64,000 nt of DNA from Verrucomicrobiaceae bacterium (GTDB lineage: Bacteria > Verrucomicrobiota > Verrucomicrobiia > Verrucomicrobiales > Akkermansiaceae). Below, piece after piece: positions 570-40,687 of the stretch (position 1 is its first letter; each line of letters begins with the position of its first letter). The position numbers were made by a program, and so were the translations under genes. The notes beneath the pieces are model-generated. The model worked only from the letters and a program-made list of their open reading frames with translations, had not been told where the DNA came from and did no database searches. Location: assembly GCA_027485995.1 (NCBI GenBank), contig JAIXPW010000150.1, forward strand, positions 1 through 64,000, read 5' to 3'.

Positions 570-1592
570 ATGGAATCTCCGATCGACCCCGCCTATCAGC
601 TGCCGCCCGACGATGTTGCCGCCATCGACGAACTTGGAAAAACCTACAAGGCATTCCGCGAGGAGCTTGGCAAAGTGATCGTGGGCCAGGAGCAGGTCAT
701 CGAGTTGCTCGCCATTTCGCTCTTCGCCAAGGGACATGCGCTCCTGATGGGCGTTCCCGGACTCGCCAAGACCCTCTTGGTTTCCTCCGTGGCCCGGACC
801 TTCGACCTTTCCTTCAACCGCATCCAATTCACTCCCGACTTGATGCCAGCCGACATCACCGGCACCGACATCATCCAGGAAAGTGGCGTCGGCGGAAAGC
901 GCGAGTTCGAGTTCATCAAGGGTCCGGTGTTCGCCAACATCGTCCTCGCCGACGAAATCAACCGCGCCCCGGCCAAGACCCAGTCCGCCATGCTTGAGGC
1001 GATGCAGGAAAACAAAGTGACTGTCCTCGGCCAGACCTACACCCTCCAGCCTCCATTCTTCGTCCTGGCGACCCAGAACCCGATCGAACAGGAAGGCACC
1101 TATCCCCTCCCCGAGGCCCAGCTTGACCGCTTCATGTTCCTCATCGAGGTCGGCTATCCCACCGCCGAGGAGGAAAAGCGCATCGCCCGGGAAACCACCG
1201 GCAACAAGAAGGCCGACCTTTCCAAGCTACTCAACGGCGAGACGGTCCTCGCCTTCCAGCAGCTCGTCCGCCGAGTGCCGGTCCCCGAGCACCTCTATGA
1301 CTACGCGGTGAAAATCGTCCGCAAGACCCGCCCGGATCAGCCCGAGTCCCCGCAGTGGGTCAAGGACTGCGTCGGCTGGGGGGCCGGACCGCGCGCCGTG
1401 CAGTATCTCATCCTCGGGGCCAAGTCCCGCGCCGCCCTGCGCGGTGCCTACATGGCCTCGCTCGAAGACATCGAAGCCATCGCCTCCTCCGTTCTCGGTC
1501 ATCGCGTGATCACCAACTTCGCCGCCGAATCCCAGGGCATGACCTCGAAAAAGATCGTCGAACGCCTGCTCAAGGAAATGCGCGAAGAATGA
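570..1592 (+). CDS. MoxR-family AAA+ ATPase
   Basis: MoxR AAA+ ATPases act as chaperones, often for partners carrying VWA domains, and are encoded next to them. The 340-residue protein has Walker A GVPGLAKT (about 61-68), Walker B VLADEINRAP with the DE pair at 128-129, sensor-1 ATQNP (about 167-171) and the arginine-finger segment EAQLDRF. Length is normal for the family. The ATG at 570 places the AAA core correctly after a short acidic leader. The stop overlaps the start of the next gene (ATGA), so the two are translationally coupled. Confidence 0.95.
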   Translation: MESPIDPAYQLPPDDVAAIDELGKTYKAFREELGKVIVGQEQVIELLAISLFAKGHALLMGVPGLAKTLLVSSVARTFDLSFNRIQFTPDLMPADITGTDIIQESGVGGKREFEFIKGPVFANIVLADEINRAPAKTQSAMLEAMQENKVTVLGQTYTLQPPFFVLATQNPIEQEGTYPLPEAQLDRFMFLIEVGYPTAEEEKRIARETTGNKKADLSKLLNGETVLAFQQLVRRVPVPEHLYDYAVKIVRKTRPDQPESPQWVKDCVGWGAGPRAVQYLILGAKSRAALRGAYMASLEDIEAIASSVLGHRVITNFAAESQGMTSKKIVERLLKEMREE

Positions 1593-2482
1593 AATACGAC
1601 TTCCTCGACAGCGCCCTGCTTTCCAAACTCGGTTCCCTGCCCGTCGAGTCGCGCACGCCGATGATCGGAAACGTTGCGGGCAAGCACAAGTCGCCCCACC
1701 GCGGCTCGTCGGTGGAGTTTGCCGAGTATCGGAAATACGTCGCCGGTGACGACACCCGTCGGCTCGACTGGAAGGCCTACGCCCGTTCCGACCGCTATTA
1801 CATCAAGGAATTCGAGGCCGACACCAACCTCCGCGCTTATTTCGTGGTCGATACCTCCGGCTCGATGGCCTTCAGCGGCAAGGCCGAGCCCAAGATCCAA
1901 TACGCCCGCAGAATCGCGGCCTCGCTTTCGTATCTGCTCGTCAATCAGGGCGACGCCGCCGGCCTCTCGGTCTGCACCGATAAGCTCCACCTCGAGGTCC
2001 CGCCAAGCCGCCGCCCCGCCCACCTCGACCGGCTTTTCACCACCCTCGGCTCGCTCGATCCATCGGGCGAAACCGGCCTGGTCCCCGCCCTCCACACCAT
2101 CGCGGAAAAAATCGGCCAGCGCGCCCTCATCGTCATCCTTTCCGACCTCTTCACCGATCCCGACCAACTGGCCGACGCCCTCCAGCACCTTCGCTATCGC
2201 AAGCACGACGTCTGCGTCTTCCACCTCCTCGACCCGCAGGAGATCGGCTTCGAGTTTGATCGCCCGCACCGCTTCGTCGATCTCGAGGATGGCACCGTCC
2301 TGGTCGCCGAGCCAAACCTCATCGCCGAGGAATACCACACCGCCCTGCGCGAGTTCCTCACCAAGGTCCGCGACGTCTGCCACGACGCCAACGCCGGCTA
2401 CCAGCTGGTCACCACGGACACGCCGATGGAGGAGCTGCTGCGTGGTTTTTTAATGGGCCGATTGTCGAAGAGAAAACACTGA
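1589..2482 (+). CDS. DUF58 protein with VWA-like fold
   Basis: This 297-residue DUF58 protein is the usual partner of MoxR. The hallmark segment RRLDWKAYARSDRYYIKEFE is at about 58-76 and a metal-site-like DTSGSM is at 88-93, as in VWA domains. The start overlapping the moxR stop was chosen over longer upstream frames because it begins with the conserved leader of the family. It has no transmembrane helix and is probably cytoplasmic. Its stop codon lies one base before the left inverted repeat of the 2484-2912 element, which separates it from the next operon gene. Confidence 0.93.
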   Translation: MKYDFLDSALLSKLGSLPVESRTPMIGNVAGKHKSPHRGSSVEFAEYRKYVAGDDTRRLDWKAYARSDRYYIKEFEADTNLRAYFVVDTSGSMAFSGKAEPKIQYARRIAASLSYLLVNQGDAAGLSVCTDKLHLEVPPSRRPAHLDRLFTTLGSLDPSGETGLVPALHTIAEKIGQRALIVILSDLFTDPDQLADALQHLRYRKHDVCVFHLLDPQEIGFEFDRPHRFVDLEDGTVLVAEPNLIAEEYHTALREFLTKVRDVCHDANAGYQLVTTDTPMEELLRGFLMGRLSKRKH

Positions 2483-2483
2483 T

Positions 2484-2516
2484 GGGAATGACTAATGACT
2501 AAATCCTAATGACTAA
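2484..2516 (+). repeat. left 33-bp terminal inverted repeat (heptad array)
   Basis: GGG followed by four 7-bp units (AATGACT, AATGACT, AAATCCT, AATGACT) and AA. It matches the reverse complement of 2880-2912 without a mismatch. Its last base is the A of the ATG that opens the enclosed gene. Confidence 0.9.
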
Positions 2517-2872
2517 TGGAAGAGGCCAGATTTGATCTTGAGGAACGCACATTTCAGTTTGCGCTCGCGGTCAGGCATTGTGTTGCCGGACACCGCTGGA
2601 GCCGCGCTCAGTGGCGTGACATCGATCAGATCCTCCGTTCTTCCGGCTCGGTCGCGGCAAACTACGTCGAAGCCGACAATGCCGTCTCAAAGCCAGACTT
2701 CATCTACCGCATTGGCGTTTCCAAAAAGGAATGCGTCGAAACCCGCCTCTGGCTCCGTCTCCTCGGAGCAACCACTTCAGAAGAATCCGTCAAAGAATCC
2801 CTGCGCCAACTCTACAAAGAAGCCGACGAACTCATCCGAATTTTCGCCGCCATTCTCCGCAAGTCCCAGTGA
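2516..2872 (+). CDS. four-helix-bundle protein (23S rRNA intervening-sequence / S23 family)
   Basis: The 118-residue protein belongs to the four-helix-bundle family first known from intervening sequences in 23S rRNA genes and related to Avd of diversity-generating retroelements. Diagnostic segments are FDLEERTFQFALAV near the N-terminus, ILRSSGSVAANYVEADNA in the middle, and KKECVETRLWLRLL. The molecular role of free-standing members is unknown. The ATG at 2516 overlaps the left inverted repeat, so translation must start within or right after it; no Shine-Dalgarno outside the repeat is possible. It interrupts an otherwise tight MoxR-BatA operon and shares no obvious function with it. Confidence 0.88.
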   Translation: MEEARFDLEERTFQFALAVRHCVAGHRWSRAQWRDIDQILRSSGSVAANYVEADNAVSKPDFIYRIGVSKKECVETRLWLRLLGATTSEESVKESLRQLYKEADELIRIFAAILRKSQ

Positions 2873-2879
2873 CCTCTTT

Positions 2880-2912
2880 TTAGTCATTAGGATTTAGTCA
2901 TTAGTCATTCCC
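2880..2912 (-). repeat. right 33-bp terminal inverted repeat (heptad array)
   Basis: Perfect reverse complement of 2484-2516, with the plus-strand unit AGTCATT. It ends five bases before the GTG start of the BatA-like gene and so occupies that gene's ribosome-binding region. Confidence 0.9.
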
Positions 2913-2917
2913 TTCCG

Positions 2918-4906
2918 GTGTCCTTCCTCCAACCATTCCTCCTCTGGGGACTGCTCGCTGCGAGCATCCCCATCATCATCCACCTGCTGAACAAGCGTCG
3001 TCACAAGACGATCAAGTGGGCGGCGATGCAGTTCCTGCTGAAGGCCACCCGTGAGTCGCGCGGCAAGAAGAAGCTGCGGCACATCCTGATCCTCACCTGC
3101 CGTGCCCTCGGCATCGCGGCCCTCGCCACCGCTGCCGCAAGGCCGATTGTCTCCGGACTTCTGGGTTGGGGAAATGGTCGGGTCGATGTCGTCGTGCTGC
3201 TTCTCGACCGCTCCACCAGCATGGAGCTGAAGCCGGGCGATGGCTACGATTCCCGACGCAAAGTCGTGGTGGAAAAGGTGCGCGACACCCTCAAGGACCT
3301 CGGTGGAGCCCGGCTCGTGCTGATCGACAGCGCCAGCGGCCAGGCCCAGGACGTGCCATCGCCCGAGGCTCTCACAGACCTTTCCTCGACCGCCGCGACC
3401 GACACCGCCACCGACCTTCCAGCGCTGGCCACCAAGGCAGCCGAGTTCCTGGCGGAAACGCCCGGCCGCGCCGAAGTCTGGATCGCCACCGACCTCCAGG
3501 CCTCGAATTGGAAGGCCGATGACGAGCGCTGGGCCTCCGCCCGGGCCGCTCTAACAGCGCTGCCGCAGAAGCCTTCCATCCGCGTGCTTGGACTCACCGG
3601 CCCCACCGCCTCGAATACCTCGCTGCGCCTCGTTTCCTCGCGCCGCAGCGCCGACCAGCTCGTCCTCGACATGGAAATCTCCCGCGCCGAGAACGCCCGC
3701 GGCACGGTGAACCTACCCCTCACCGTCAACCTGAACGGCTCCCGCTCGACCGAAAGCCTCACGATCAATGGCCAGTCGCTGCGCTTTCAAAAACGCATCA
3801 CTCTGCCCACCGGCAGCGACACCGGCCACGGCTGGCTCTCGATCCCCGCCGACGGCAACGAACGCGACAACGCCGCCTTCTTCGCCTACGGCCCCAACCG
3901 CCCGATCAAGAGCATCGTCGTCGCCCCCAGCGGAGAGTCCGCCGGCTACCTGCAACTTTCCGCCGCTCCTCCCGGCTTCGGAAACCAGTCGGTCACCAAG
4001 CTCGATCCCGCCAAGGCCGCCACACTCGCGACCAGCGACACCGCGCTCGTGATCTGGGCCGCCCCGCTGCCCAGCGGCCCCACCGCCGATGTGCTCCAGA
4101 GCTTCCTCTCCGCCGGAGGCCAGATCCTGTTCCTCCCACCCGGCCAAGGCTCCGACACGACCTTCCTCGGAATGAAATGGTCCCAGCCCTCCGAGGCCCC
4201 ACTTGGAAAATTCTTCATCCTCAAGGACTGGAGCCGCGACGACGGTCCGCTGCGCGACGGCATCGATGGCACCCAGCTCCCGGCCGACCGACTCCGCGCG
4301 ATCAAGCGCCAGATCCCGATCGGCAACGCCACCCCGCTCGCCCGCTGGGATGATACCGAACCCTTCCTCGTCCGCATCGTCGAACGCGGCACCGCCTGGT
4401 TCGCAGGATCGATTCCCGACTACACCTGGTCGAACCTCGGCGACGCCGATGTGCTGCTGCCTCTGGTCCAGCGTCTGGTCGCCCTTGGAGCCGAGCGTTT
4501 CGACGCTTCCTACCTGACCACTGTCGGCAGCGAGGCTTCGAAACTCCTTCCCGGAGAAACCCGGACCCGCCTCGACGACTACGGCACGCCCGACCCCGCG
4601 AACGCCGCCTACGAAGCGGGTGTCTTCAAGCTCGGCGACCGACTTCTCGCCTTCAACCGGCCCGCCGCCGAAGACGGCCCGGAAGTTGCCAGCAAGGAAG
4701 CCCTCGACACCAGCCTCAGCGGCACCGGCTACACCCTCTTCGAGCAGGCAGGAAAGCCCGGCGACGGAGCCGTGTCCAAGGACGTCTGGCGCGCCTTCCT
4801 CATCGCCATGCTCTTCTTCCTGATCTCCGAGGCCATCCTCTGCCTCCCGAAAAAAACGGTCGAGTCCTCCCTCCCCACCCGCCCCGGAGCCAAAGCCACC
4901 GCCTGA
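2918..4906 (+). CDS. BatA-like membrane protein with VWA domain
   Basis: This 662-residue protein starts with the BatA N-terminal domain: FLQPFLLWGLLAASIPIIIH is a first membrane helix, then a basic KRRHKTIKW loop and a second helix around 54-78. A VWA-type metal site DRSTS is at 97-101. The long middle part is probably periplasmic, and a last helix (AFLIAMLFFLISEAIL) precedes the basic C-terminus. Such proteins act with MoxR and DUF58 partners, in some bacteria in aerotolerance or envelope stress. The start is GTG at 2918 with no visible Shine-Dalgarno because a heptad repeat lies directly upstream. A CTAACAG heptamer at 3551-3557 is read through rare codons CTA-ACA. Confidence 0.88.
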   Translation: MSFLQPFLLWGLLAASIPIIIHLLNKRRHKTIKWAAMQFLLKATRESRGKKKLRHILILTCRALGIAALATAAARPIVSGLLGWGNGRVDVVVLLLDRSTSMELKPGDGYDSRRKVVVEKVRDTLKDLGGARLVLIDSASGQAQDVPSPEALTDLSSTAATDTATDLPALATKAAEFLAETPGRAEVWIATDLQASNWKADDERWASARAALTALPQKPSIRVLGLTGPTASNTSLRLVSSRRSADQLVLDMEISRAENARGTVNLPLTVNLNGSRSTESLTINGQSLRFQKRITLPTGSDTGHGWLSIPADGNERDNAAFFAYGPNRPIKSIVVAPSGESAGYLQLSAAPPGFGNQSVTKLDPAKAATLATSDTALVIWAAPLPSGPTADVLQSFLSAGGQILFLPPGQGSDTTFLGMKWSQPSEAPLGKFFILKDWSRDDGPLRDGIDGTQLPADRLRAIKRQIPIGNATPLARWDDTEPFLVRIVERGTAWFAGSIPDYTWSNLGDADVLLPLVQRLVALGAERFDASYLTTVGSEASKLLPGETRTRLDDYGTPDPANAAYEAGVFKLGDRLLAFNRPAAEDGPEVASKEALDTSLSGTGYTLFEQAGKPGDGAVSKDVWRAFLIAMLFFLISEAILCLPKKTVESSLPTRPGAKATA

Positions 4907-4914
4907 GCCTCTTC

Positions 4915-4950
4915 CATTCGTCATTAGGAAATTAGTCATTAGTCATTTCT
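4915..4950. repeat. solo heptad array between the BatA-like and VWA genes
   Basis: Five units of about seven bases (CATTCGT, CATTAGG, AAATTAGT with one extra base, CATTAGT, CATTTCT). It shares a 16-base stretch with the right arm of the 2484-2912 element but carries no gene. It fills the spacer between the BatA-like stop (4906) and the TTG start at 4956. Confidence 0.8.
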
Positions 4951-14873: not shown

Positions 14874-14996
14874 CCCTGGACTGCGGTGACTCGTCACCGC
14901 TTTTGGTTCAGGAGGCTTGCCGACAGGGGAGGAGCTGGTTTTCCCGCCACAAGTGGCAACGGCCGGAAAGCGGTGACAAGTCTCCGCAGTCCAGGG
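14874..14996 (+). repeat. palindromic interspersed repeat, copy A (123 bp)
   Basis: Begins CCCTGGACTGCGGTGACT and ends AGTCTCCGCAGTCCAGGG, so its ends are inverted repeats of about 28 bp with two mismatches. The interior holds a further palindrome, GCCACAAGTGGC. It differs from copy B at only five positions. It carries no coding capacity. Confidence 0.85.
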
Positions 14997-15953: not shown

Positions 15954-16076
15954 CCCTGGACTGCGGTGACTTGTCACCGCTTTTGGTTGAGGAGGCTTGC
16001 CGACGGGGGAGGAGCTGATTTCCCCGCCACAAGTGGCAACGGCCGGAAAGCGGTGACAAGTCTCCGCAGTCCAGGG
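15954..16076 (+). repeat. palindromic interspersed repeat, copy B (123 bp)
   Basis: Same orientation as copy A, with five differences over 123 bp. It begins 13 bases after the attC-like site, so copies A and B bracket the cassette-like gene as direct repeats. The inner dyad GGTGACTTGTCACC is perfect here. Confidence 0.87.
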
Positions 16077-35561: not shown

Positions 35562-38049
<2,488 letters not shown>

Positions 38050-39501: not shown

Positions 39502-39600
39502 ATTTTCGAATTTCGAATTTCGAATTTCGAATTTCGAATTTCGTCATTCGTCATTCGTCATTCGTCATTCGTCATTCGTCATTCGTCATTCGTCATTCGT
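39502..39600. repeat. long homogeneous heptad array (14 units)
   Basis: About six AATTTCG-type units followed in phase by eight identical TCATTCG units, 98 bases with a strict 7-base period. It ends 8 bases before the lpxI stop codon. This is the longest and most uniform array in the window, so it probably expanded recently. Confidence 0.92.
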
Positions 39601-39607
39601 CCTCCCC

Positions 39608-40626: not shown

Positions 40627-40654
40627 GAATGACGAATGGGGAATGACGAATGAC
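40627..40654. repeat. heptad array upstream of tRNA-Leu
   Basis: Four units GAATGAC, GAATGGG, GAATGAC, GAATGAC. It is the inverse of the CATTCGT units at 39544-39599. It lies just beyond the stop of the haem-binding protein gene. Confidence 0.8.
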
Positions 40655-40687
40655 GATGCAGAGCGGGTTTGTTGAGCGTCAGCGTCT

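Follow-up and report, generated by a model that had tools for sequence, protein, structure and literature searches.

In the MoxR operon of a Verrucomicrobiaceae bacterium (its draft genome, 269 contigs totalling 5.7 Mb, is here called the home genome) a gene of the S23 family lies between two mirror-image arrays of 7-bp repeats, which raises the question whether gene and repeats are a resident part of the operon or together form an element of their own. The question reaches beyond this locus: S23 ('four helix bundle protein') is a gene without a known function that is nevertheless very common, being found in 221 of 289 sampled genomes of the phylum, and the 7-bp repeat is the commonest short tandem repeat of bacterial genomes and is unexplained. 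Below, the window means the whole stretch of DNA analysed, 64,000 nucleotides of one contig.

Anatomy of the unit and its protein

The unit (Table 1) is bounded by two arms, the left one reading GGGAATGACTAATGACTAAATCCTAATGACTAA, each of which is an array of 7-bp units and the exact reverse complement of the other, with complementarity reaching 36 nt at 97% (2481-2516/2880-2915). No longer perfect inverted repeat spans 700 bp or less anywhere in the window, and in 20 first-order shuffles the longest measured 12-16 nt. S23 is the sole gene inside, its ATG starting on the final base of the left arm, and the unit fills the entire gap between the DUF58 stop and the BatA start. In relatives without the unit the DUF58 and BatA genes lie 0-60 nt apart, several overlapping as TGATGA. 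The anatomy proposed from the sequence alone, i.e., perfect 33-bp inverted heptad arms around one S23-family gene that starts at the inner edge of the left arm, the whole placed between two normally adjacent genes, is therefore borne out.

Table 1. Positions in the window of the unit, its host operon and a related solo array
Feature	Position	Strand	Remarks
MoxR ATPase, first gene of host operon	570-1592	+	profile
DUF58, upstream host gene, MoxR operon	1589-2482	+	profile
Left arm, heptad array, ATGACTA type	2484-2516	+	33 nt, perfect complement of 2880-2912
S23 / 23S_rRNA_IVP four-helix-bundle gene	2516-2872	+	118 aa; profiles, AlphaFold2 model
Right arm, inverted heptad array	2880-2912	+	33 nt; its TTTAGTCATTAGGATTTAGTCATTAGTCATT core recurs across the home genome as a dispersed repeat
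BatA/vWA, downstream host gene	2918-4906	+	profile
Solo right-arm-type heptad array, same family	4915-4947	+	frames no gene; directly before next gene

Membership of the encoded protein in the S23 family follows from profile matches above the curated cut-offs (44.8 bits to PF05635, cut-off 33.8; 67.5 bits, E=1.1e-18, to TIGR02436, cut-off 24) and from its fold: the AlphaFold2 model has four helices (mean pLDDT 94.9) and is closest among solved structures to the four-helix bundles of the S23 entries 2rld (TM 0.79/0.86) and 2gsc. Both entries contain five chains, matching Avd of diversity-generating retroelements, which is a pentamer, and by homology the S23 protein is most likely ring-forming and pentameric. 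The resemblance to Avd itself (8ub7, 8ube) is one of fold at a distance (TM 0.72-0.76, E=0.18). Unlike Avd, the S23 protein is by inspection near neutral in charge, and no reverse transcriptase adjoins the unit, whose neighbours are MoxR, DUF58, BatA and the next gene of the operon.

Heptad arrays around S23 genes and elsewhere

A check suggested by the sequence-only reading, whether other genes of the family are flanked by inverted heptads, found them present as a rule. In Verrucomicrobiota the two flanks of 79 distinct S23 genes matched in inverted orientation with a median score of 14 (7 for swapped flanks), 48 of these genes exceeded the 99th percentile of the swaps, and self-match of the flanks was raised at lags 7 and 14. 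Across phyla (75 S23 genes from a genome collection covering Acidobacteria, Bacteroidota, Planctomycetota, Chloroflexota, Proteobacteria, CPR and others) 31 of the 75 had an arm-pair score >14, against 2 of 254 other genes at the same loci, and lag-7 self-match was 0.347/0.408 in S23 flanks and 0.266/0.278 in those of the other genes. In the home genome and its relatives matched arms were found on 25 of 30 S23 genes and on none of 24 ParE toxin genes, the flanks of which were without heptads; Y1_Tnp genes had inverted repeats in 15 of 22 cases with a flat lag-7 signal, so that only the S23 flanks were heptad-periodic among the three. Clear arms are nonetheless absent from a third to half of S23 genes, which counts against a mobile cassette, and there were no S23 units in 50,697 phage records. 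The heptads vary by locus around a loose common pattern, AG-K-K-N-Y-Y (on the S23 sense strand, rotated to AG). A role as stop codons in all three frames is not general; by inspection many heptads, AGAATCC and AGGGGTC among them, are stop-free on the sense strand. Separately, in G017 the right arm of one unit (locus L122, about 65-200 nt beyond the S23 stop codon, which lies at 3251 in the oriented locus) is expanded as a 14-nt repeat, CTCTTGATTCTTGC, each unit of which is two heptads.

The type of heptad follows the S23 lineage. Over 86 units at non-homologous sites, S23 protein identity correlated with left-arm similarity (Mantel r=0.33, equalled in 0 of 1000 permutations; -0.02 for an upstream control region), and the correlation held within the genus (r=0.36, 0 of 2000). 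A comparable tie is seen inside single genomes. The home genome has about 10 dispersed heptad arrays per 100 kb, and the 23 arrays outside the unit in the 239 kb examined matched the flanks of its own ten S23 genes with a mean score of 17.8, compared with 12.4 for ten random foreign S23 genes and 12.7 for ten from relatives, the observed mean being reached in 0 of 5000 random draws; a repeat in genome G179 gave 14.5 against 10.5 (1 of 5000). S23 presence failed as a simple predictor of array density, since the difference was weak (1.8 with S23, 0.8 without, per 100 kb) and arrays also occur in G145, where S23 was undetected. As arrays far outnumber S23 genes and are found in G145, the arms of S23 units might simply come from the heptad pool of the genome, a point against a mobile cassette; these tests are of association, and arrays and arms could share one pool. 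From the cognate statistics we infer that the S23 protein may bind its own heptads. One of the G145 arrays (L268, 10898-10986) is a GTAGCGA-type heptad hairpin, which may be a relic or else an argument against dependence on S23. Within the window, a long TTCGAAT/TTCGTCA heptad array, near-perfect over about 100 nt (39504-39601), has an inverted partner 1 kb off (40627-40656), and between the two lie what by inspection look like an LpxI-like gene of 272 aa and a tRNA-like stretch.

Such data could also be read as the behaviour of passive repeats, with heptads spreading and homogenising by slippage and by copying from the inverted copy (quasi-palindrome correction or gene conversion) and S23 as a passenger. 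Expansion by slippage is indeed seen (ten TTAGTCA units in contig 283 of G011; a long array in G017), and genes other than S23 are at times framed. Arms can moreover switch type and stay perfect: orthologous S23 genes carry unrelated perfect arms in G000 (ATGACTA type, 33 nt) and G008 (AAGCACT type, 47 nt), those of G008 extending into DUF58 and BatA codons. We still consider this account improbable, in that it leaves unexplained both the framing specific to S23 in many phyla, relative to ParE or to neighbouring genes, and the tracking of S23 lineage by heptad type. That arms are always replaced as a matched pair holds for G000 and G008 and was rejected as a rule; at the MoxR-DUF58 units no arm turnover was seen, and the arms there match through a shared motif.

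The DUF58-BatA junction and evidence on movement

BatA was detected in 58 of 59 genomes searched. The syntenic operons without the unit that the sequence-only reading had called for were found, 12 of 28 DUF58-BatA junctions in relatives being short; six hold S23 (G011, G023, G008, G031, G035 and G014) and ten hold other inserts, among them toxin-antitoxin-like modules and an ORF-less heptad hairpin. The same unit at the same place in all relatives, named beforehand as an outcome that would make mobility unlikely, is thus not what these relatives present. S23 genes from DUF58-BatA fall into a single clade, apart from those of the other junction (99/97), with L009, an unplaced paralogue of the home genome, grouping among them. 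A second clade (100/99) comprises the genes found at MoxR-DUF58 within the genus, the unit of G039 being apparently separate. A recent insertion at DUF58-BatA is ruled out by the single clade there, which was inherited with the operon; the unit is an old resident of this junction, often lost, and one clade per junction implies that movement is rare.

Such vertical inheritance might suggest that S23 is instead a settled component that serves the MoxR operon, its arms a regulatory or insulating hairpin. The protein of the window is identical across three genomes, and S23 is invariably in sense orientation in this operon, as would be expected of such a component. S23 is, however, missing from the junctions of most relatives, toxin-antitoxin-like modules take its place at the same junction elsewhere, and the family occurs in unrelated operons, e.g., one in which it separates cas10 from cmr3 and another in which it adjoins a VirB10-family gene, so we regard a settled function as very improbable. 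As an observation on the operon itself, small modules concentrate in a hot spot at its junctions in the genus, DUF58-BatA and neighbouring ones (L103, L105, L107, L108, L111); they are by inspection RelB/ParE- and VapBC-type toxin-antitoxin-like pairs and an HNH-like gene, with ParE matches at several of the sites.

Several signs point to movement. The unit differs from its counterparts in G011 and G023 at only 3 and 2 of 429 positions (0.5-0.7%), whereas divergence from these genomes is ~4% in MoxR, DUF58 and most of BatA, with the shift falling at the edges of the unit; the first 500 nt of BatA diverge by 1.6% from G011 but 4.6% from G023. This island of identity could reflect constraint or gene conversion. 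At another junction (L003, contig 13 of the home genome) the home genome and G011 carry two different S23 units in the same sense, with heptads of AGTTTCA and AGACACA type, between flanking genes that are 94-96% identical. At L004 (contig 79) the home genome has an intact unit where both relatives have a decayed S23 remnant, and at L002 (contig 151) the S23 genes of the relatives are diverged and without heptad arms.

Copies of the arms occur apart from S23 as well. The right arm recurs, exactly or nearly so, at ten further gene junctions of the home genome in addition to the solo array of Table 1, which has equivalents in G011 and G023, and ORF-less hairpins with both arms lie at three of the ten (contigs 86, 129 and 167), the one on contig 129 retaining a sequence like the start of S23. 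The occurrence of arms with no gene between them, or around a gene other than S23, speaks for the repeats being the ends of an element. Two observations touch on such other genes: in contig 49 of G011 (L449, ~1036-1497) the arms of the window unit, 30 nt identical, frame a 117-aa lipoprotein-like gene with no clear Pfam family and a weak EF-hand match, and in contig 21 of the home genome (L265, 6545-6956) inverted heptad arms frame a 114-aa gene whose product by inspection resembles a (2Fe-2S) ferredoxin-type protein, a second candidate passenger cassette. Against a mobile cassette, seven dispersed right arms are paired with unrelated left arms, and in a comparison of filled with short junctions no clean empty-to-filled pair was found and, the insertions being old, no target duplication could be called. 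The earlier proposal of a minimal mobile element ending in its repeats thus survives in part: gene-less hairpins and a passenger cassette share the arms of the unit, but its insertion was not recent and heptads extend beyond S23 units. Mobility of the unit is supported, with these limits.

Known elements and a proposed cassette

The closest anatomical counterpart is the 23S rRNA intervening sequence (IVS) of Coxiella, which is 428 nt long, contains an S23p ORF whose ATG is immediately preceded by tandem GACAGAT heptads, has a 28-bp terminal stem and is cleaved by RNase III at the first of the repeats (PMC4990558). Our unit is alike in length (about 430 nt), in its S23-family ORF, in its long terminal inverted repeats and in the tandem heptads directly before the start codon; it differs in lying in a protein-coding operon (DUF58-BatA) and not in a 23S rRNA helix, and in being one of a family spread over the genome, some copies of which have no gene or a passenger gene. 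Having terminal inverted repeats capable of forming a stem around an S23 ORF, the unit is, judged by anatomy, an IVS element outside rRNA.

Given this likeness, the unit might act at the level of RNA, its arms pairing in the polycistronic mRNA, RNase III freeing the S23 message and S23 binding the stem, with the repeats kept for pairing. The RNA of the unit folds with z=-8, although a stem is a trivial outcome for complementary DNA arms, and where the neighbouring genes are co-directional most S23 units read in sense (44 to 5, 13 to 4 and 16 to 2, one ratio for each of three sets), although most of the controls do so too (ParE 10 to 1, Y1_Tnp 11 to 4). Mismatches in the arms show no G.U bias in sense RNA (54 vs 73, p=0.11), so that wobble counts give no support to selection for RNA pairing, and gene-less hairpins and solo arms are abundant. 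An RNA-level element is therefore unlikely in our estimate, if the most serious of the competing accounts.

A second likeness is to RAYTs (Y1 transposases) with their REP/REPIN repeats, in which one gene is framed by inverted repeats and the genome that holds it also has dispersed cognate hairpins, many of them at gene junctions. Here too the gene is framed by inverted repeats and the home genome holds cognate, non-autonomous hairpins, i.e., those of contigs 86, 129 and 167, with arrays matching its own S23 arms. The two differ in that a RAYT is an HUH nuclease and the unit encodes a four-helix bundle, and in that the repeat consists of 7-bp units differing from unit to unit, the Y1_Tnp frames of the same genomes not being heptad-periodic. 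The unit contains neither a Y1/HUH tyrosine nuclease nor the transposase gene of a DNA transposon or insertion sequence, S23 being its only gene. Tandem heptamers are themselves familiar, e.g., the STRR of cyanobacteria are tandem heptamer repeats. In passages of three reports (a SPADE survey, PMC6344855; TAACTGA repeats, PMC4679880; Geobacter heptanucleotides, PMC2700814) prokaryotic heptamers likewise have a 7-bp period, are intergenic and dispersed and vary in sequence by family, and these passages yielded no gene, S23 or any other, framed as a partner, whereas the arrays described here go with S23 genes and follow their lineage. In the wider literature, mainly open-access papers and without bioRxiv preprints, we found no link of tandem heptamers to S23 outside the Coxiella IVS.

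The explanation we favour, to which we would give an even chance, is a small mobile cassette, IVS-like and RAYT/REPIN-like, with S23 as the partner of the heptads. The element would consist of the S23 gene between mirror-image arrays, the arms being its ends and moving with it; S23 would recognise its own heptad type and draw both ends together. Cutting and copying would be supplied by the host (replication or recombination) or by another element, as the cassette has no nuclease of its own. To our knowledge S23 has no known catalytic activity, which counts against such a cassette. Copies would rarely enter junctions of co-directional genes, alongside gene-less hairpins and occasional passenger cassettes sharing the arms, and a settled unit would be inherited over long periods before it decays or is replaced.

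Heptads and S23 are tied by position, by sequence type and inside single genomes, which makes S23 the first gene partner of this repeat and connects both with a long-standing question, the origin of rRNA intervening sequences. We tentatively suggest, as a possibility short of an expectation, that S23 proteins may be dedicated partners of bacterial tandem heptamers, each lineage with its own heptads, and may make up a nuclease-free mobile class (autonomous, passenger and gene-less), of which rRNA IVSs would be the best-known special case. Further arrangements were seen. In a plasmid of Picosynechococcus PCC 7003 (L413, 1438-1867) an S23 unit with GGAGATA heptad arms is inserted into a type III-B CRISPR operon, between its cas10 and cmr3 genes, and plasmid C of Trichormus variabilis ATCC 29413 (L412) also carries S23. 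The window also holds a REPIN-like hairpin family without heptad periodicity, CCCTGGACTGCGGTGAC..GTCACCGCTTT with a 63-nt loop (14874-14996, 15954-16076 and 37933-38049), two copies of which flank a 166-aa ORF of unknown family.
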